Shown here: one piece after another, positions 1,707 through 60,279 of the stretch
Layout of the letters: every line of letters starts with the position of its first letter
Position numbering within the stretch: position 1 is the stretch's first letter
From: Candidatus Gastranaerophilales bacterium
Lineage (GTDB): Bacteria > Cyanobacteriota > Vampirovibrionia > Gastranaerophilales > Gastranaerophilaceae
Length of the DNA stretch: 64,000 bases
Direction of reading: 5' to 3'
NCBI GenBank assembly: GCA_944322725.1
Contig: CALUPU010000006.1
Span: forward strand, 1 to 64,000
The notes under the pieces: generated by a model
Seen by the model: only the letters and a program-made list of their open reading frames with translations
Databases searched by the model: none
Told to the model about the DNA's origin: nothing
Position numbers and translations under genes: made by a program

Positions 1707-4700
1707 TTATTCGCCCTGTTTTTTGCATTTAACACCGCGTTTGGTTGCGTCAATAACCTGCAGTATTGTTTTGTCGAGGAGTTCAAATTCTTTTTGTTTT
1801 TCAGGCGGTTGTTTTGCTCTCCATTCATTAAGCATTTTGAGAAATTCTTCTCTGTGGATAACGCATTCGCCTGTTCCGACTTTGCCGGAATATTTTTTGA
1901 CAAACTCTTTATTAAAGTTTTCGTATACCTGTGTTATTGCCTCGGAAACAAGCTGGGCATTGGTGAGCATAACATCAATATCTTTATTCATGTTATCTTT
2001 GTCTTTTTCGGACATGAAAAACATTCCGTCCAGAGATTTTTTGCCAAAGTGTTTGCCCTGCCCCATTAACGCAGTAGCCAGTGACGCAGAATAGCTTGCC
2101 ATTGCCATATCACAGGTTATTCCCCAGCTTCCGTCCTGTCCGTAGAAGTGTTTTTCGCAAGAGTTGCCGCCAAATGACACAACAAGTTCGCTGAATATTT
2201 TTTCAAAAGACCATTCAGAGTTTAGAGCGTCACTGAAAAATACAGCACCGCCAAAGGAGCCTCTGGGGTCTAATGTGATAAAGTTCACGGTATTTCCTAA
2301 GTGATCGGGTCTTTTTTCTTTTTTTGCAAGTTCTTCCATGATTATGCCGTTTGTGGCATGTCCGCACTCATGAGAGGTTACGAGTTCTTTTCTGTATGGA
2401 GGTTCCTGTGCGCTGGCAGGTCTGCCCGTTGTAAGTTGCAAGAAGGCTTCTGTGAAGTCTGTTTTGTCGACTGCTTTGTGTTTTCTTTCTTTTGCAACAT
2501 TTTTAGCTTTATCCAGAAGTGTCAAAATTCCGATGTAGGATGAACGTTCCATGAGCATGTTTATATGGTCTTTTATAAGTTTTTGCTCTTCTTCGTCACC
2601 TGCGAGTTTGATATTTTTTTTCTTGATGTAGTAGTTTATGATTTCGTTTCTTGCTTCTTTATTCATAAAAGGAGATTCAACCTCTATCTGGTCAATAAAT
2701 TTAAAAGATTTTGAGGTTGCTTCGCCAATATAACCGGGGTTGCTCATTGAGCCCATTACTATGATATTAAGCCCCTGCTCCTGCGCTTTGTTCATCTCTC
2801 TGATAAGCTGGGACATTGCTTTTTCATGGTATTGTGAAACATATTCGCCGAAAGAAAAATATTCAAAGTTTTCTATAAATAAAACAGCTGATTTTTTAGG
2901 GTTTGTTTCTGCCTGTGTTTTTACCATGGCAAAAAGTTTTTTCATTGACGCTTCAGGACTGAGGTTGCCGCCTCCGAAAAGGTCAACGTCTTTTGTTCCG
3001 AAATCAACCGCGTTGATTTCTATATAAGGTGTTTTTGCTTCGCCTGCTATTGCCTGTGCCGTGTATTTTCTGCCTGCGCCGACAGAGCCGTCTTGAGAGT
3101 AAATTACAAAGCCTTTTGTACCTATTGATTTATCCTTGATTCTTTCAACAATGGATTGTGCTTCTTTTTTTGTTGCGGGTGAGCCTACCATGTCTTTTAG
3201 CTTTATTCCCGTATCAAAAATTATTTTTACCGCATTATCGTTGTCTATGGGTTTGAAAACTTCTTTGGCTTCTTTTATGTAGTTTTGTACATCGGTGAGA
3301 GAAATATTCTGCTTATCTACATAATAAGACGAAACAAGTTCCATTACCTTCTGTGCTTTTTCAGGGTAATTGCCCGAAAGCTGATTTGCCGCTTCTATAC
3401 ATTTTTCCATTGCGGCTTTTGAAAAATTCTTTTTAATTTTTGACATAAGTTCAGGAGTTTCGCGAAAAGCTTTCTTTGTCTGTTCCATATTCATAAGAGG
3501 CAGAGATACCTCGCCAAAATCAGTAAAATATCCTCGAATTGTCTGACTGTCACTGTTATTGTAAAAGGTATCCTTGTCTGCAACCATCACGAATTTTATA
3601 TTTTTGGATGCAGATTCAAAGGTTTCGATATTAAGTTCATCAATTGCAAGCGAAGAAAGTTCATCATCCATGATGTCCATAATTATAACGTAGTTTGTGT
3701 CTTTATCTTTACCGAAATCTTTTATTTTTCTTGTAATATATCCGTCGTCAATAAAACCTTCTCTGTTCAGGTTCAGGATTTTTGTATTATTTTTGTTGAG
3801 GCTGCCAAAACCGTTATCATCCTTTTCAAACAGGTTTAACAAGCTGTTAATCAGGTAAGAAGGATAGGTATTTTTTTCATGAAGAATAATCATGTTTGTA
3901 CCGACTGCAAGATTTTTCCAGATGTTTTTTGCTTTGTCATCGTAGAATTTTAAATGAGTGCGCTGATTTATGGGTCTTTTGTCTATGTATACAGCATCTT
4001 TCATTGCGTTTCTGAAAGGAAGGGTTATTTGTTTTTTCAAAGAGTCGCTGTTCGGTATCATGGCTGCGGCAAAAAGCATGTTGTCATGAACAAGTCCGTC
4101 TCCGTCTGAGAGTTCTCCTCCCAAATCGCTCGAATTTTCCTGATTGTATATGCTGTATACGTCATTGAGATAACGCTTTGCAATCGGCAGGTTTTTTGAT
4201 GATTTTGCCGGTGACGAGGGCATTTCCTCCAGCTTTTTATCTAAGATTTTAATTTCATCCTCAATTATAGGCAGCAGTTTATCTCTTTTTTCTTTGTTTC
4301 TGAAAACATTTTTACCCATGTCCTGCTCAAAGAAGAGTTGTGCATCGTATGAAGATTCGTCGCTGTAGCTTATTTCGCCCGAGTTGAGTTTTTCTATGTA
4401 GTCTTTAATAAACTCAACACCTGCTTTCAATACGTGGATTCTGTCCACTTCTTTGTGTCCGTATTGTTTTGCTATTTTTTGTGCGTTGTTCAGGAGTTCT
4501 TCTGCGGGGTCATTGAGGTTGTCAAGGATAAAAGCAGATTTATCGAGATTAGTTTTGGCTGCGCTGCCGAAACTGACATAATAGCTGTGAAGTAATTTTA
4601 ACGATGGTTTTGCTTGTTTGGATTCTTGTTTTTCGTACGGGGGGGATACAGATGTTTTATTGCTGATTTTTGTTGTATTTACGATAGTTTTGGGGCTAAT

Positions 4701-4724
4701 GCCGTATCCGATTTTTTGAATCAT
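1707..4724 (-). CDS. Soluble FtsH-like protein: Clp-N-like region, degenerate AAA, M41 peptidase
   Basis: This 1005-residue protein ends in a recognisable M41 (FtsH) peptidase domain: HECGH at 785-789 gives two zinc histidines and the catalytic glutamate, a DPRGSFGGAVFF strand matches the FtsH substrate strand, and Asp872 (GITCDMAMA) fits the third zinc ligand. Before it lies an FtsH-type AAA module (about 500-770) that looks inactive: the P-loop reads GSVGAGRK at 546-553, with Arg in place of the key Lys, Walker B reads FIENFE with Asn in place of the catalytic Glu, and no arginine-finger motif is visible. Residues about 66-170 resemble a Clp N-domain, and 270-480 resemble a decayed first AAA domain with a ClpA/ClpC-like lid (NYPEKAQKVMEL). 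FtsH's two N-terminal membrane helices are absent. The peptidase call is firm; the N-terminal reading is inference. Confidence 0.8.
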   Translation of the reverse strand: MIQKIGYGISPKTIVNTTKISNKTSVSPPYEKQESKQAKPSLKLLHSYYVSFGSAAKTNLDKSAFILDNLNDPAEELLNNAQKIAKQYGHKEVDRIHVLKAGVEFIKDYIEKLNSGEISYSDESSYDAQLFFEQDMGKNVFRNKEKRDKLLPIIEDEIKILDKKLEEMPSSPAKSSKNLPIAKRYLNDVYSIYNQENSSDLGGELSDGDGLVHDNMLFAAAMIPNSDSLKKQITLPFRNAMKDAVYIDKRPINQRTHLKFYDDKAKNIWKNLAVGTNMIILHEKNTYPSYLINSLLNLFEKDDNGFGSLNKNNTKILNLNREGFIDDGYITRKIKDFGKDKDTNYVIIMDIMDDELSSLAIDELNIETFESASKNIKFVMVADKDTFYNNSDSQTIRGYFTDFGEVSLPLMNMEQTKKAFRETPELMSKIKKNFSKAAMEKCIEAANQLSGNYPEKAQKVMELVSSYYVDKQNISLTDVQNYIKEAKEVFKPIDNDNAVKIIFDTGIKLKDMVGSPATKKEAQSIVERIKDKSIGTKGFVIYSQDGSVGAGRKYTAQAIAGEAKTPYIEINAVDFGTKDVDLFGGGNLSPEASMKKLFAMVKTQAETNPKKSAVLFIENFEYFSFGEYVSQYHEKAMSQLIREMNKAQEQGLNIIVMGSMSNPGYIGEATSKSFKFIDQIEVESPFMNKEARNEIINYYIKKKNIKLAGDEEEQKLIKDHINMLMERSSYIGILTLLDKAKNVAKERKHKAVDKTDFTEAFLQLTTGRPASAQEPPYRKELVTSHECGHATNGIIMEELAKKEKRPDHLGNTVNFITLDPRGSFGGAVFFSDALNSEWSFEKIFSELVVSFGGNSCEKHFYGQDGSWGITCDMAMASYSASLATALMGQGKHFGKKSLDGMFFMSEKDKDNMNKDIDVMLTNAQLVSEAITQVYENFNKEFVKKYSGKVGTGECVIHREEFLKMLNEWRAKQPPEKQKEFELLDKTILQVIDATKRGVKCKKQGE

Positions 4725-4855
4725 GTTTTTCTCTCTTTGCTTTTATGTGCATTCCAAAGCAAAACACAAAAAATATTTCACTTTATACGGATAAAAAATG
4801 AAATAGAATTTTTTTGTTACATGATTTTTGAAATATTAAAATATTGTAATATTTT

Positions 4856-21072: not shown

Positions 21073-22452
21073 CTAATCATTATTCTTGATTATTTCAAGT
21101 TCTTTTAGAATACCCTGATTAATCTCAAGCACATCAACGCCAAGATTGGATAAAACCTGCATTGCAACGGAATCAGGCGTCTGTGTGATTGCCCAAAGAA
21201 GATTTTCGGAAGCGATTTTTGTATTCTTATGTTTTTGGGCTTTTTCCCAGGCAATTTCCAGAATTTTCTTTGCCCTGTCAGAAAAAACAACTTCTCCAAA
21301 CGAATAAGAATTGCCGTATCCCAGTACTTTTTCTACTTCAATACGCGCATCTTTGATGGTTATACCCAGCTGTGACAGCACTCTTGCCCCTATTCCCGCG
21401 CCTTCTCCGATAAGACCGAGGAGAATAAACTCGCTGCCGACAATGTTTCTGTTCATTGACTGGGCTTCCCGTTTGGCAAGCCTGAGGATTGTAAGAGTTT
21501 CAGGCATTTGTTTTTCAATGGGTTTGATTATCTTATGCGCAAGATTATCGTCATTAATATTAAATTCTTTGAAAATGTTATAAGCAATACCGCTTTTTGC
21601 CTTTAGTATGCCGAGAATAATATGCTCGGGCTTTACGTTTGCAGAACCCAGTTCCTTCGCTGTTTCAAACGCAAGAAGCATTGTTTTAAACGCATTGGGT
21701 GTAAAAATTATCTGTTTTTCTTCGAATTCCGCCTGACGCGATGAAACTTCGTTCAACTTAGAACAATAATTTTCAAGATTTATGCCGGATTCGTTGAGTA
21801 ATTTTGTTACATCAGAATTGGAATCCTCGAGCACCGACTGAACTATCTGCTCTGTTCCGAGAATCTCGTAATGAGACGCGGTGAGTTTTGCTACGGCTCT
21901 GTCTAATATTTCTTTTGCATCTCCGTCTTTAAATATTGATTGAACCGTAGAATACGGGCTTTTATCGCTTCTTCTTTCCACTTCGGGGTGGATTTCATTC
22001 TTTTTATTGTTTTTTTCAATGAGTTTTAAAAGTGTTTGTTTGAGTTTTAGAATATCAACATTGTTGTCTTGAAAATCTTTTAAAAGTTCTTTGTCGGATT
22101 TTTCTGCAGTCAGTACAAGCGCAATCAATAAGTGTTCCGACATAATATAAGAATTTTTCTTTTTGGCAAGTTCCGATGCAAGTTTGATAACTTTTTGAGA
22201 ACCTTCGCTGAATGCTATATTAGTATGTTTGAACCGGTGCGAAACATCGCTGTATTTTTTTAAAACGTATTCTTTGTATTTTTCCGTGTTCATTCCGCCG
22301 TAAGCAAGAAGACGCGAACAAATATTTGACTTAGACTCGAGAACCCCGAGCAGTATATGTTCAGGATAAATCTTATAAGTATGTGAATCGGCTGCTTCTT
22401 TTTGTGCCAGAGATATTATATTAATTGCTTTTTCCGTAAAACGTTCGAACAC
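21073..22452 (-). CDS. Protein of three tandem Clp N-domains without an ATPase
   Basis: The 459-residue sequence consists of about six helical half-repeats, i.e. three Clp_N domains, and nothing else. Half-repeats begin near MFERFTEKAINIISLAQKEA (1), FSEGSQKVIKLASELAKKK (78), KEILDRAVAKLTASHYE (180), FTPNAFKTMLLAFETAKEL (250), TLTILRLAKREAQSM (315) and FSDRAKKILEIAWEKAQKH (390), most with an EHILLG-like turn. In ClpC and ClpA this domain binds adaptors and substrates. Without AAA modules this protein might act as an adaptor, decoy or scaffold for a Clp-type machine, comparable in idea to plant ClpT. It is last in the 25476-21073 operon. Confidence 0.8.
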   Translation of the reverse strand: MFERFTEKAINIISLAQKEAADSHTYKIYPEHILLGVLESKSNICSRLLAYGGMNTEKYKEYVLKKYSDVSHRFKHTNIAFSEGSQKVIKLASELAKKKNSYIMSEHLLIALVLTAEKSDKELLKDFQDNNVDILKLKQTLLKLIEKNNKKNEIHPEVERRSDKSPYSTVQSIFKDGDAKEILDRAVAKLTASHYEILGTEQIVQSVLEDSNSDVTKLLNESGINLENYCSKLNEVSSRQAEFEEKQIIFTPNAFKTMLLAFETAKELGSANVKPEHIILGILKAKSGIAYNIFKEFNINDDNLAHKIIKPIEKQMPETLTILRLAKREAQSMNRNIVGSEFILLGLIGEGAGIGARVLSQLGITIKDARIEVEKVLGYGNSYSFGEVVFSDRAKKILEIAWEKAQKHKNTKIASENLLWAITQTPDSVAMQVLSNLGVDVLEINQGILKELEIIKNND

Positions 22453-55012: not shown

Positions 55013-58000
55013 ATGGGCAGTTTAATTAACTCTATACCTGTTTATAAGCCTCAACAAGCGCCGCAGAAACCTGTTCCTGCTGTTTCTGTATCGTCTCATG
55101 CTGCGCCTTCTAACCGTTTACTCAGTGACATTATTAACAAATATCCGCAGGATAAGATTTATACATATGTTCCTGCTGAGCCGTTAAGTCCGGCAAGAAC
55201 AAAGCCGGTTGGGGTTTCTGCCAGAAAACCTTCAGGTGAACTTATTAAGGAGAATTTTTTCCAGTCTGTAGGCCGCACTGTAAAATCATACGGCGATTAT
55301 GCAAAATATTTTTATAATGCTGCATTCAAAGGCGAAGGAAAAGATTATACGGTAGGCAAAATCAATGACCTTTCTATCAGAGCAGGTTCTCTGGGGATTG
55401 CTACTGTGCTTGCTGCTTCAAAAATATTTCCGTTTGCAAGAGGTATGGAGTTTGTCGGTCTGGCAACATGGTTTGCCTCAATGGCTGTATGGCCGAAAAT
55501 TCTCGGGGCGCCAATCAAAGCTTTGTATGGTGTTGACATAAATCAGAAATACAAGAATTCCGACGGGATGATTAAAGATGTTTTTGAAGACAATCAATAC
55601 CGTCCGATGGATATTTACAGATATGCCGACAAAAATGGAAAACCTTTAACTAAAGAAGAGTACTTTAAAAAGTATGACCATGAATATGTTTATCTTGAAA
55701 AAATCGGTGACAAACTCGGGCTGGACAAAGATATCAAGAACAGAAACGAAGCAACCATGAATAAGATGGGGCAGGTTGCTGTTCAGGGAAGAACTCTGTG
55801 GATGATGACAGCCGGTGTTATGACGCCTGTTGTTTCTTCTATTGTTGCGGATGCTGCCCAGAAGCCTCTTAAAGATGCAATTGAAAAAACAAGATATACA
55901 AAAAATGAGAATATTCTTATAAAATTGGAATCTAATGTAAGGGAACTTTTAGGTGAAAAGGGTAATGTAAAAGTTACTGACATAGACAAGATTTATGAAA
56001 AACTGGATTTAAAAGTTTCTCCTAATGTCGAACATCGTTTCAACTCTCTTCTTTCGGAAAACGGTGAATTGACACAGGCGCAATTTAACGAGTTAAACAG
56101 ATTTTTTGAAAAAAGATTCTATGGTACGGGATACTATGATTCTGTTCGTGCTGCAATGAGCAAAGACAGCAAAATGACAGAGCCTGTTATCAATTTAACC
56201 GAAGAACTGAAAAATAAACTTGTGGAAATTTCCAGACAGTCTTTTGAAGAAGTAATTAATGCTCTGCCGGAAAGCTATAAACGCCAGATTCCCGAAAAAA
56301 TCTCTAACTATGCAGGCATGAGCGAAAATGAAATAAAAGCTTTGTTCGATGATATGTTTGTCCAGGGCAATGTTCGTCTTAATCTGCAGCAATCTATTGC
56401 GTTGAAAGACAGAATGCCTGCTTATGCTATTGCACGTTTTGAAGAAGTTAAAGGTCGTAATCCTTTCTTAGTCAAACTTGTCAGTAATGCAAGAATTAAA
56501 ATGAACGAAAAGCTTAATGCTCTTTATGAATCAGAGAAACGATATATTGTTTCCGCTGATGAGATGAAGAAATTATTCCGTTTCGGAGAATTGAATCGTC
56601 AGTTAAAAGGCAGATTGAGCCTGTTTGAACGCGCTACTATCAAGAATATTTCCGAAGCAGCAACAGCTGTTGCCTGGGAAAGGGTTCCTCAAGAATATCT
56701 CAAGGCGCTTGGATTCAGCAACAAAGAACTGGCTGCTCTTGCGATATCAGATTCATCTTTTGCAAGCAAGATTATTACAAAAAGATTTGAAGCTATTGCC
56801 TCTAAACCCGAAGAGTATCAAAAAGTAATCAAGACAATGTCCGAGTTTGCGAAGAAAGCTGTTTCCAAAGAAGAAAAAGCCGTTATTCGTTTAATAGGAA
56901 CTATTGATAATCCGGGTGTTTTGATAAAAGTTAAAGAATTAATGGAATCTGTTGCGCAGGCAAACTTCGGTCACAACATGCAAGAAACTATAACTGCTTC
57001 TTATATGCAAAAAATTCGAAATGTTCAACGTAAGATGAGAAATACGGTTGATTCTTTTGTTCGTCCGATAAAAGCTCTTGATTTGTTCCACAGAATTGAT
57101 GATGCTGTCAGCTGGGTTGTCGGTGCTGCGGAAGAAGGCAGAGGCGGATTTGCGGAACGCAAGAATAATCCAGCTTATCATATGTTTGAAAATATGTCTT
57201 ATGCTAAGGCAAGAAAATCCGTTAACAGATATCTTAAAGATATTATTCTGCAAAAGAACGATATCAATAACTGGACAACAAAAATGGAACATGATTTGCC
57301 CGGTGCAAAAAGAGGTTTGAAGTACTCAAAAGATGTATTGTGCACCGTAGCTGACGTGATATTTGAGGAACTTCATCCTGATACAGTTCGTGCAATCAGA
57401 GGTGAAATCCCTGAGAAATTTGCAGCAAATGAAGATTTTATTACCAAGATTAATGCTAATAACAGGGTGATGAAGGCTAAGTTCCTGCGTATAAAAAATG
57501 AACTTACTAAAGAAGACACTCTGGTTATGCAGAGTCTTGGAGATATTGTTGAGATTTTGAAAAACGGCAGTCCTAATGCTAAGGAAGCAAGAGTTAAAGC
57601 TGCAAAACTTTTGCAAGAGATTATAAAGGACAAACTTACGGATGTACGGTCTAACTGGGATCTTAACGAACTTAAGAATTATAAGACTGTTTTAGATGAT
57701 TTTATTACTAATAAAGCCTATTCTGTAATGCCGAATGGTGAAAAATATGGTATTCAAGGTGCTATTGATTTATTAACTAAAAAAGGAAGTATGACTGAAT
57801 TCTGGTCTTCAAACAAGGCTATATCTGAATCTACCGGTAAAAATATCACAGATTTCCTTTCTTCTGCCGCTCAGAATGTAAGAGCAAGAAATAAATGGAC
57901 AAAACTTGTATACGGTTTATTGTTTGGAACTCTTGCCGTATCTGCTGTTACTATTGCTCGTATGGGCAGAACAAATATATTTAACACTGATAAATACGAA

Positions 58001-58033
58001 TATAAAAACAAAGCCGAAGGAGCCGACAGATAA
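55013..58033 (+). CDS. Large lineage-specific membrane-associated helical protein
   Basis: The 1006-residue product has a proline-rich N-terminal 70 residues, hydrophobic segments near 124-141, 145-165 and 262-282, a very long helical middle (300-950) rich in charged residues, and one C-terminal membrane helix (965-983). No enzyme motif is visible. It may be a scaffold holding the operon's glycosidase at the membrane. Its ATG follows the previous stop with no gap and its own stop overlaps the GH13 start by one base (TAATG), so the three are made together. Confidence 0.65.
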   Translation: MGSLINSIPVYKPQQAPQKPVPAVSVSSHAAPSNRLLSDIINKYPQDKIYTYVPAEPLSPARTKPVGVSARKPSGELIKENFFQSVGRTVKSYGDYAKYFYNAAFKGEGKDYTVGKINDLSIRAGSLGIATVLAASKIFPFARGMEFVGLATWFASMAVWPKILGAPIKALYGVDINQKYKNSDGMIKDVFEDNQYRPMDIYRYADKNGKPLTKEEYFKKYDHEYVYLEKIGDKLGLDKDIKNRNEATMNKMGQVAVQGRTLWMMTAGVMTPVVSSIVADAAQKPLKDAIEKTRYTKNENILIKLESNVRELLGEKGNVKVTDIDKIYEKLDLKVSPNVEHRFNSLLSENGELTQAQFNELNRFFEKRFYGTGYYDSVRAAMSKDSKMTEPVINLTEELKNKLVEISRQSFEEVINALPESYKRQIPEKISNYAGMSENEIKALFDDMFVQGNVRLNLQQSIALKDRMPAYAIARFEEVKGRNPFLVKLVSNARIKMNEKLNALYESEKRYIVSADEMKKLFRFGELNRQLKGRLSLFERATIKNISEAATAVAWERVPQEYLKALGFSNKELAALAISDSSFASKIITKRFEAIASKPEEYQKVIKTMSEFAKKAVSKEEKAVIRLIGTIDNPGVLIKVKELMESVAQANFGHNMQETITASYMQKIRNVQRKMRNTVDSFVRPIKALDLFHRIDDAVSWVVGAAEEGRGGFAERKNNPAYHMFENMSYAKARKSVNRYLKDIILQKNDINNWTTKMEHDLPGAKRGLKYSKDVLCTVADVIFEELHPDTVRAIRGEIPEKFAANEDFITKINANNRVMKAKFLRIKNELTKEDTLVMQSLGDIVEILKNGSPNAKEARVKAAKLLQEIIKDKLTDVRSNWDLNELKNYKTVLDDFITNKAYSVMPNGEKYGIQGAIDLLTKKGSMTEFWSSNKAISESTGKNITDFLSSAAQNVRARNKWTKLVYGLLFGTLAVSAVTIARMGRTNIFNTDKYEYKNKAEGADR

Positions 58034-60279
58034 TGATATTGAATAACATTACATCTTATACTCCGCATGTGAATTTTAATTTTAAGGCATCTTTGCTTAA
58101 TCAGATGATGCAAAAAAACGCTGCTTCTTCTGTTTCGATTCCTTCTGAAAATACATATATCCCGAACACAAATCCTGGGTATATTCCGGTTGTTTCACCT
58201 GCTGCTGAAAAATATAATAAATCAGTGCGTCAGGGCAGTCTGCTTACATCAATGATAAACAGGTTGAATCCGTCTATATCCGTACCTGTAGCTGCTCCTG
58301 CTGCTGTTTCTCCGTCAGCGGTGATTCCGGTTCAGGGGTATAGGAATAACCTGCGTTCAATGTTCCAGAATAATCAGGCAGTTATCTATGCAATGATACC
58401 GAGAACTTTTAATGCTAAAGATACTGACGGAAACGGACTTATTGAAGGTGATGAAGAGCCCGGATATTTTACAAACATGGTTGAGCGCCTTGATGAATTA
58501 AAAACATACGGTATCAATACTTTACACTGGCTGCCGATAAATCCCCCGGGTGAAAAAGCCGCAAAGGGTAATGCAGGTTCTGTATATGCTCCTAAAGACT
58601 ATTTGACGATAGATCCGGCTCTTGATGATCCGAGAAATCCTATGTCTGTTAATGAAGAGGCAAAGTATGCTATAAATGAATGCCACAAAAGAGGCATTAA
58701 GGTTATGGTAGACCTGCCAAGCTGCATGTCTGTAGATTTGTATGATGCAAGAGAGGATTTGAGAGCTACTGATGCAAACAACAATCCTAAAACTCCTGAA
58801 GGCTGGGAGGATATAAGGATGTTCAACCCCTGGGAAGATGCTGATCGTAAAATTTTGAACAGAGCACTTCTCGATTATCACAAGAAATTTATTGATTTGT
58901 GTTTGGAACTCGGTATAGACGGTATAAGAGCAGATGTAGGAAGAGCCAAACCGCCGGAATTCTGGGATGAACTTATTTCATACACCAGAAGCAAAGATTC
59001 TGAATTCGCTTTTCTTGCGGAATGCTATACATACGAAGATGCTTCTCCTATGAAAAATATGCCTGCTGATCGTCCGGAAGAAGCTTTAGAGTCAGGATTT
59101 GACTCTTTCTACGGTCAGTACCACATATTCCATCAGTGGAAAGCAAAAGATTTTCATAAATTTGTTGAACAGAGTCTTGATATGACAAAAAATCATGATA
59201 AGGGTAAGTCACTAATAGGTTCGTTTGCTACACACGATGACAAGAGCCCTATGTCTAACGGCGGTCCTGATTATTGCATGATGACAAATGTTGTGCAGGC
59301 TACACTGCCCATGACCAACCCTTATATAGTAACCGGTTTTGAGTCAGGTGACAGATATATTTATAAATATAAGGATGAATTTGTACACAGGACATTTAAC
59401 GAGTTGCTTGAATTGCCTCTTTACAAAGGGACAGTTGAAAGTTTATTGACTTTAATTGATGCCAAATTGTACATGGATGAACTTAACGAATCAGGCAATA
59501 GCAATATGACAATAGGTCAGTTGTCTCAGGATTCTAAATATTCAAAAATTGTTGACGCACTTTCTTCATTTGAAAATATAAACAAGTTTATACAAAGTAA
59601 TCCTTCTATAACACTTGCACAAATCCAAAATATACCTGTATTAAAAGAGGACTTTGGATATGTTCAGACGCTTTATAATCAGGTAAAATCATTGAAAGTT
59701 CTAATGAAATCAGATAATGCGAGAAATATGAGTATAGAACAGCTGAGCAAATCTCCTGAATTTAAGAACATAATTCAATATTTTGAAAATTATTTCCTGA
59801 CAAAAGACAATATAAAATATTATGTTTCACCTGAACATGTGGATATTTTTAACAAGGCTGCAAAACCGGAAGGAGACAATCCTGAAATAGGTCAGCACTT
59901 CGGCTATCTTATGAACTGTGTAAGACCAAAATACGGTGAATTGATTACAAAGGGTAATTATATAGAACTGAATGTAAAAAATAACGGCAGGGATGAGGTT
60001 ATTGCCTATGCAAGATGCAAAGACGGCAAGACACTTGTTACAATTGTGAACCATGATGTAAATGCGAGACAGAAGGTTAAAGTTGAAATCCCCGGTCTGA
60101 AGTCTACTCAGGTTCTTACTGATTTATCGCCTAAATACGGCACAGGCAGCAGCTGGGCAGCAAAAGAAAATGAAATAGAGATTGATTTGGGTCCTGCTCA
60201 GGCTCACATATTCGAAGTAGACACGCCTTATCTTACGGAATCAGTAAGTCCTGACAAAGTATTCCAGCAGAATTTATAA
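58033..60279 (+). CDS. GH13 alpha-amylase-family glycosidase without a signal peptide
   Basis: The 748-residue enzyme has a proline/serine-rich N-terminal 105 residues with no signal peptide, then a GH13 barrel. The Ca-loop reads DTDGNGLIEGDE (130-141), the nucleophile is Asp301 (GIRADVGRA), the acid is Glu330 (FLAEC) and the third acid is in FATHDD (401-403). Region I reads VDLPSCMS, lacking the usual NH pair. A helical insert of about 150 residues (453-605) precedes a C-terminal beta domain. It may act on glycogen, trehalose or another alpha-glucan inside the cell. The unusual region I suggests an atypical substrate or weak activity. Confidence 0.85.
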   Translation: MILNNITSYTPHVNFNFKASLLNQMMQKNAASSVSIPSENTYIPNTNPGYIPVVSPAAEKYNKSVRQGSLLTSMINRLNPSISVPVAAPAAVSPSAVIPVQGYRNNLRSMFQNNQAVIYAMIPRTFNAKDTDGNGLIEGDEEPGYFTNMVERLDELKTYGINTLHWLPINPPGEKAAKGNAGSVYAPKDYLTIDPALDDPRNPMSVNEEAKYAINECHKRGIKVMVDLPSCMSVDLYDAREDLRATDANNNPKTPEGWEDIRMFNPWEDADRKILNRALLDYHKKFIDLCLELGIDGIRADVGRAKPPEFWDELISYTRSKDSEFAFLAECYTYEDASPMKNMPADRPEEALESGFDSFYGQYHIFHQWKAKDFHKFVEQSLDMTKNHDKGKSLIGSFATHDDKSPMSNGGPDYCMMTNVVQATLPMTNPYIVTGFESGDRYIYKYKDEFVHRTFNELLELPLYKGTVESLLTLIDAKLYMDELNESGNSNMTIGQLSQDSKYSKIVDALSSFENINKFIQSNPSITLAQIQNIPVLKEDFGYVQTLYNQVKSLKVLMKSDNARNMSIEQLSKSPEFKNIIQYFENYFLTKDNIKYYVSPEHVDIFNKAAKPEGDNPEIGQHFGYLMNCVRPKYGELITKGNYIELNVKNNGRDEVIAYARCKDGKTLVTIVNHDVNARQKVKVEIPGLKSTQVLTDLSPKYGTGSSWAAKENEIEIDLGPAQAHIFEVDTPYLTESVSPDKVFQQNL

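Follow-up and report, generated by a model that had tools for sequence, protein, structure and literature searches.

An M41 peptidase joined to altered AAA domains and an Hsp100-like front half in Gastranaerophilales

FtsH is the textbook example of a protease welded to its motor. Homologues of AAA proteases that have lost one of the two activities are nevertheless on record. LonC of Meiothermus, typified by MtaLonC of M. taiwanensis, needs no nucleotide to assemble into a hexamer, lacks ATPase activity and degrades substrates that are unfolded while sparing folded ones (PMC3391209), a precedent that makes fuel-free degradation of unfolded chains possible. In chloroplasts, the FtsHi1-5 proteins keep the GxxGxGKT P-loop and lose the HExxH motif (PMC11266112, Table 2). 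Among the open-licence papers searched, none was found to describe an M41 protein combining an active peptidase with a dead ATPase. Here we analyze a gene encoding a candidate for such a protein in a 64,000-nucleotide stretch of DNA (the window) from a Candidatus Gastranaerophilales bacterium, together with its relatives in the same order.

Domain architecture and the intact M41 zinc site

A possible Shine-Dalgarno sequence, GAGAG (4731-4735), lies six bases 5' of the ATG of the 1707-4724 reading frame. Its product opens with a disordered tail that carries a short motif; an N-domain of the Hsp100/Clp type, a D1 domain lacking a P-loop and an altered AAA domain of the FtsH type follow in that order, and an M41 peptidase domain comes last (Table 1). 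The residue survey cited below draws on 62 homologues, which come from 17 genera within a single order, Gastranaerophilales, and reach down to 29% identity.

Table 1. Coordinates in the window of the gene and of the features of its product
Feature	Coordinates	Strand	Basis
CDS, soluble pseudo-AAA M41 peptidase, 1005 aa	1707..4724	-	ATG start; start common to orthologues
aa 1-58, hypervariable disordered tail	4551..4724	-	pLDDT <50 over 1-58; 37% mean identity in genus
aa 50-54 VSFGS, conserved tail motif	4563..4577	-	fits family motif; last position S/A/G varies
aa 62-115, Clp N-domain-like repeat	4380..4541	-	profile matches, Pfam Clp_N, Hsp104 N-D1 fold
aa 116-247, mostly helical, between N-domain and D1	3984..4379	-	AF2 secondary structure
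aa 248-489, Hsp100 D1-like domain without P-loop	3258..3983	-	ClpC D1 profile matches and 5vy8 NBD1 fold
aa 497-767, FtsH-type AAA domain, catalytic residues replaced	2424..3236	-	Pfam AAA, FtsH folds, residue survey
aa 546-553 GSVGAGRK, altered P-loop, Arg for Lys	3066..3089	-	Arg in 62/62
aa 614-620 VLFIENF, altered Walker B: Glu618 for Asp, Asn619 for Glu	2865..2885	-	residue survey, 62 relatives
aa 669-679, second region of homology (SRH), both Arg fingers replaced by Lys	2688..2720	-	Lys in 51/62 at each
aa 776-950, M41 metallopeptidase domain	1875..2399	-	Pfam Peptidase_M41; 3kds fold match
aa 785-789 HECGH, zinc site and general base	2358..2372	-	H785, E786, H789 in 62/62
D872, third zinc ligand	2109..2111	-	kept in 62/62

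The C-terminal half is related to FtsH: the NCBIfam FtsH model TIGR01241 covers residues 504-935 (E 6e-17), A. aeolicus FtsH matches at E 5e-15, and the Pfam AAA model at E 3.5e-8. Pfam Peptidase_M41 (PF01434) is recovered at E 3.6e-6, with 27.4 bits on the reading frame, slightly below the 29.9 cut-off, and 30.0 bits in the genome search; the same model is matched by all 36 aligned family members. In the AF2 model (mean pLDDT 71.6), the AAA and M41 domains align with apo-FtsH (3kds) with a TM score of 0.83. The Pfam match and the fold place the protein in peptidase family M41. It is not FtsH proper: the anchor is absent, the Walker motifs are replaced, and the TIGR01241 score of 61.5 bits misses the curated equivalog cut-off of 600. 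The original prediction had the reading frame, strand and numbering of the zinc-site residues (H785, E786, H789 and D872) right, and its claim that this site is intact extends to every relative surveyed. The two FtsH membrane helices are indeed missing, as it had also stated; the maximal 19-residue mean hydropathy is 1.09, versus 2.92 for the FtsH of the same genome. A hydropathy scan found no membrane segment in any clade member, the sole value above 1.6 (L182) falling in an apparently over-extended start.

In place of these helices, the original prediction had proposed a Clp N-domain and a degenerate first AAA domain. The profile searches and structure prediction of residues 60-500 that it had suggested returned Hsp100 proteins, rather than folds unrelated to Clp/AAA. 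A profile of residues 257-505 retrieves the ClpC D1 domain from the PDB (E 1.3e-5) and the ClpC of the host itself (E 6.4e-6), and in an order-wide search it also matches ClpC-sized proteins (~840 aa) at 1e-7. With a profile of residues 60-505 the best PDB matches are the Hsp104 and ClpC N-domains (E 0.002-0.1), all top matches being Hsp100 N-domains, and nine of 25 members show a Pfam Clp_N match (0.005 at best). Modelled separately from four sequences (the window and related loci; pLDDT 66), residues 60-505 align with an Hsp104 N-D1 fragment at Z 14.5 and with the NBD1 of Hsp104 (5vy8) at Z 14.4, rmsd 2.8 over 147 residues. Given these profile and fold matches to ClpC and Hsp104, the front half is predicted to be an Hsp100 N-domain plus D1, the N-domain evidence being weak but consistent. 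A P-loop is absent from the D1 of all 69 sequences, including seven soluble relatives whose second AAA domain carries one. Thus, the protein is not an Hsp100 in the defining sense of two active AAA domains with P-loops, as its D1 has none and its second AAA domain is of the FtsH type.

The first ~60 residues carry a motif, [VIL][SNTAP]Fx[GA], seen in 37 of the 56 members with a usable start versus 1.0 expected from shuffles; it is probably a docking or sorting signal. An order-wide role in targeting was rejected: the motif is genuine in this family, but a positional test on ~720 other proteins gave no N-terminal enrichment. Similar starts, in which a short tail rich in N, K and S runs up to [ST]Fx[GA] or a close variant, were seen in unrelated proteins, namely ART-PolyVal-like, DEAD helicase, HNH and unknown proteins (L172:7336-8133 +, L190:2355-3149 -, L044:2494-5187 -, L044:273-2501 -, L211:73-1095 -, L211:19041-19685 -). 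This shared tail type may be a lineage-specific N-terminal tag, although the simple enrichment test was negative.

The altered FtsH-type AAA domain

As reference for the motif comparison we used the canonical FtsH of the same genome, encoded on the same contig just past the end of the window (C6:66110-67978). Its P-loop GVPGTGKT corresponds to GSVGAGRK in the window protein, Arg552 replacing Lys and Lys553 replacing Thr; its Walker B FIDEID corresponds to FIENFE; and its SRH motif RPGRFD to KSFKFID. The P-loop Lys is Arg in every relative and Lys in none, whereas the Walker B catalytic Glu is replaced by Asn (58), His (2) or Lys (2) and is retained in none of the 62. The P-loop glycines G549 and G551 are kept throughout, and Arg552 and Phe620 are invariant across relatives of 29-78% identity. 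The aromatic-Gly pair of the FtsH pore loop is not conserved over the clade, so that substrate entry must differ from that in FtsH.

The survey of Walker residues in homologues that had been proposed along with the original prediction found the full canonical set in none of the 62 clade members; canonical Walker motifs turned up solely in FtsH and in soluble sister proteins that form a set apart. One clade member matches the P-loop pattern elsewhere, within its peptidase domain, where the match can only be due to chance. The predicted Arg for the P-loop Lys, Asn for the Walker B Glu and absence of an arginine finger were all confirmed. At the sequence level, both AAA domains have lost the residues that ATP hydrolysis requires. 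We considered a salt bridge between R552 and E618 in place of Mg-ATP and rejected it, since residue 618 varies in the clade (E/N/K/S/D) and R552 does not.

The view of this module as degenerate, a protease having lost its motor, needs one refinement. The catalytic residues are gone and the domain appears catalytically dead, but it is not decaying: no other part of the protein is so constrained, mean pairwise identity in the genus being 87% here, 75% in M41, 72% in D1 and 55% in the N-domain. Within the P-loop segment (538-565), identity in the genus rises to 93%, versus 77% in the HExxH segment. Mere loss of a motor therefore understates a domain that surpasses the peptidase in conservation and bears an invariant signature of its own (G-x-G-R, F620). 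Being the most conserved part, the dead AAA domain is likely to have been retained for a purpose.

Phylogeny, distribution and neighbours

The gene is present once in 22 of the 23 genomes of the genus; the one genome without it (G021) has an assembly that is 96% complete. Of 286 genomes sampled evenly across the order, about 87 encode the ~1000-aa form, the overall tally of 104 including 12 genomes with ClpC-like matches alone and five with P-loop-bearing relatives. A sample of 386 genomes of the phylum gave no match outside the order. The clade is a conserved soluble protein in gut bacteria of the order Gastranaerophilales. For close pairs, dN/dS over the whole gene is 0.06-0.10, a sign of strong purifying selection. 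In a quick tree with long branches, 61 sequences form one clade (support 100), separate from FtsH and from the P-loop-bearing soluble relatives. As these soluble sisters have a canonical P-loop, the ATPase loss is probably derived; it would have been a single event in the clade, the altered state then being held.

The genome of the window retains both canonical FtsH and ClpC, and its only other M41 protein is the membrane FtsH, there being no soluble active paralogue. Elsewhere in the genus, a second soluble M41 protein of 754-778 aa (L032-L038, e.g. L033:4022-6289 +) with intact P-loop and Walker B is found in about half of the genomes; the genome of the window has none. Three proteins from a different family of the order (L036:2714-5413 -, L197:2916-5555 -, L198:520-2991 -) keep the P-loop and the zinc site and have an altered Walker B Glu and Arg fingers, apparently a second, independent partial ATPase loss by their sequences.

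Across genera, the 52 loci compared have no neighbouring gene in common, and conservation of neighbours does not reach past close relatives; a conserved operon partner was therefore rejected. A phage origin was likewise rejected, in that no relatives of the N-terminal half were found in viral contigs and the one PHROGs match, an unnamed family, is limited to the FtsH-like part. A defence system was rejected for want of a PADLOC match. The window also encodes a 459-aa protein (21073-22452, -) with four Clp_N repeats (Pfam 6.6e-44) and no ATPase domain, for which stand-alone Clp_N proteins such as plant ClpT are a possible analogy. It is a core gene, found in 281 of the 286 order genomes regardless of the protease, and hence uninformative on partnership; it was rejected as evidence for a protease partner. 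Further along lie two adjacent large reading frames, 55013-58033 (+), without a clear family, and 58033-60279 (+), with weak matches to alpha-amylase/GlgB models (2.5e-4), perhaps a divergent or inactive member.

Possible modes of action and comparison with known systems

The loss of hydrolysis residues in two AAA domains alongside a fully kept peptidase leaves three serious readings, in which the protease would be fuel-free, ligand-gated or fed by a partner. As the ATP-burning parts are lost and the cutting site is kept in all 62 relatives, the protein probably cuts already-unfolded proteins without fuel. By analogy with LonC, we tentatively favour, with a little less than even confidence, a soluble fuel-free M41 protease with the AAA ring as scaffold and gate. 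In this reading, the D1-like and FtsH-like AAA domains would still join the subunits into a ring, probably of six, with the M41 sites inside. The AAA rings would act as a static scaffold and size filter, with no pulling motor, and the Clp-like N-domain and disordered tail motif might recruit substrates or adaptors. Unstructured chains could then diffuse in and be cut without ATP, folded proteins being spared, and the cell's own membrane FtsH and ClpC would be left with the ATP-dependent work. Three points speak against this fuel-free reading: the FtsH pore-loop pair is not conserved over the clade, the altered pocket seems more conserved than a passive scaffold would require, and LonC binds nucleotides and has retained the P-loop Lys, which the clade has not.

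The high conservation of the pocket, above that of the HExxH segment, speaks for a second reading, in which the pocket of the altered AAA domain takes up some molecule other than Mg-ATP, or a nucleotide without hydrolysis, and turns the M41 site on or off, a few specific substrates being cleaved instead of unfolded protein in bulk. Neutral loss would leave variable residues, not an invariant Arg552 and Phe620; the same conservation could, however, equally come from subunit contacts or folding, and the ligand is hypothetical, so that we consider such a regulatory protease possible but unlikely. The bolder version, in which the G-x-G-R pseudo-AAA domain is a repurposed sensor whose non-Mg-ATP ligand gates a compartmental zinc protease, with the N-domain and tail motif addressing substrates, seems more doubtful still. 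A separate active ATPase might instead feed the M41 chamber, either FtsH or a soluble paralogue sharing a mixed ring with the protein, or ClpC stacked on the N-domain. In chloroplasts, FtsH subunits with and without activity are known to assemble into hetero-oligomers (FtsHi, PMC8197885), and about half of the genus has soluble paralogues whose Walker motifs are intact. Nevertheless, the window's own genome offers only the membrane FtsH as a further M41 protein, the protein has no membrane segment and no neighbour is conserved across genera; partner-driven delivery, which the original prediction had suggested, thus found no support and appears rather unlikely. The intact AAA fold and universally kept P-loop glycines would be expected if the Arg P-loop still bound and slowly hydrolysed ATP in an ordinary though divergent AAA+ protease, but with P-loop Lys, both Walker B acids and both Arg fingers replaced in the window protein, and the full set in no clade member, this is improbable. 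A decaying gene or annotation artefact, of which lost catalytic motifs are the expected picture, is hardly credible: the reading frame is conserved across the genus and in many genomes of the order, the selection test contradicts it, and the sequences form one well-supported clade.

A clade with a kept blade, a fixed dead motor and a second dead ring is a natural experiment on what AAA rings do beyond burning ATP, and sisters in the same order with a canonical P-loop make the before-and-after comparison directly testable. A fuel-free M41 protease would extend the LonC principle to zinc proteases; were the sensor reading true, AAA-derived proteases would include a class under the control of a signal, not powered by ATP.

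With FtsH and other M41 AAA proteases, the protein shares the AAA-M41 order and fold over 497-967, HExxH plus Asp, and the M41 motifs PRG and GG..E; it differs in lacking transmembrane helices, in its replaced Walker A Lys, Walker B acids and Arg fingers, in its extra Hsp100 N-D1 part and in a score far below the NCBIfam cut-off. ClpC, ClpB and Hsp104 share the N-D1 domain order and fold, but here D1 has no P-loop, the second ring is of the FtsH type and the peptidase is fused rather than a separate ClpP. The soluble sisters of the order with intact P-loop (L026-L028, L032-L038) are likewise soluble with an intact M41 domain, and L026-L028 have the D1-like domain in common with the clade; in contrast, L026-L028 retain GTGKT, DE and an RPGRF-like SRH, and show no detectable Clp-N-like region, and the sisters are separate from the clade in the tree. 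LonC resembles the clade as a soluble peptidase on an AAA domain unable to hydrolyse ATP (here predicted from sequence), in a clade apart from the ATP-dependent form. It differs in its Lon peptidase, a family not found in the window protein by Pfam search, which detects M41 instead, in keeping the P-loop Lys and binding nucleotide, and in having no Hsp100 part. Finally, the chloroplast pseudo-proteases FtsHi and Ycf2 (PMC8197885, PMC11266112) are also FtsH homologues that have lost one of two activities, but FtsHi has lost the other half: the clade, which loses the P-loop residues and keeps HExxH, is its mirror image.
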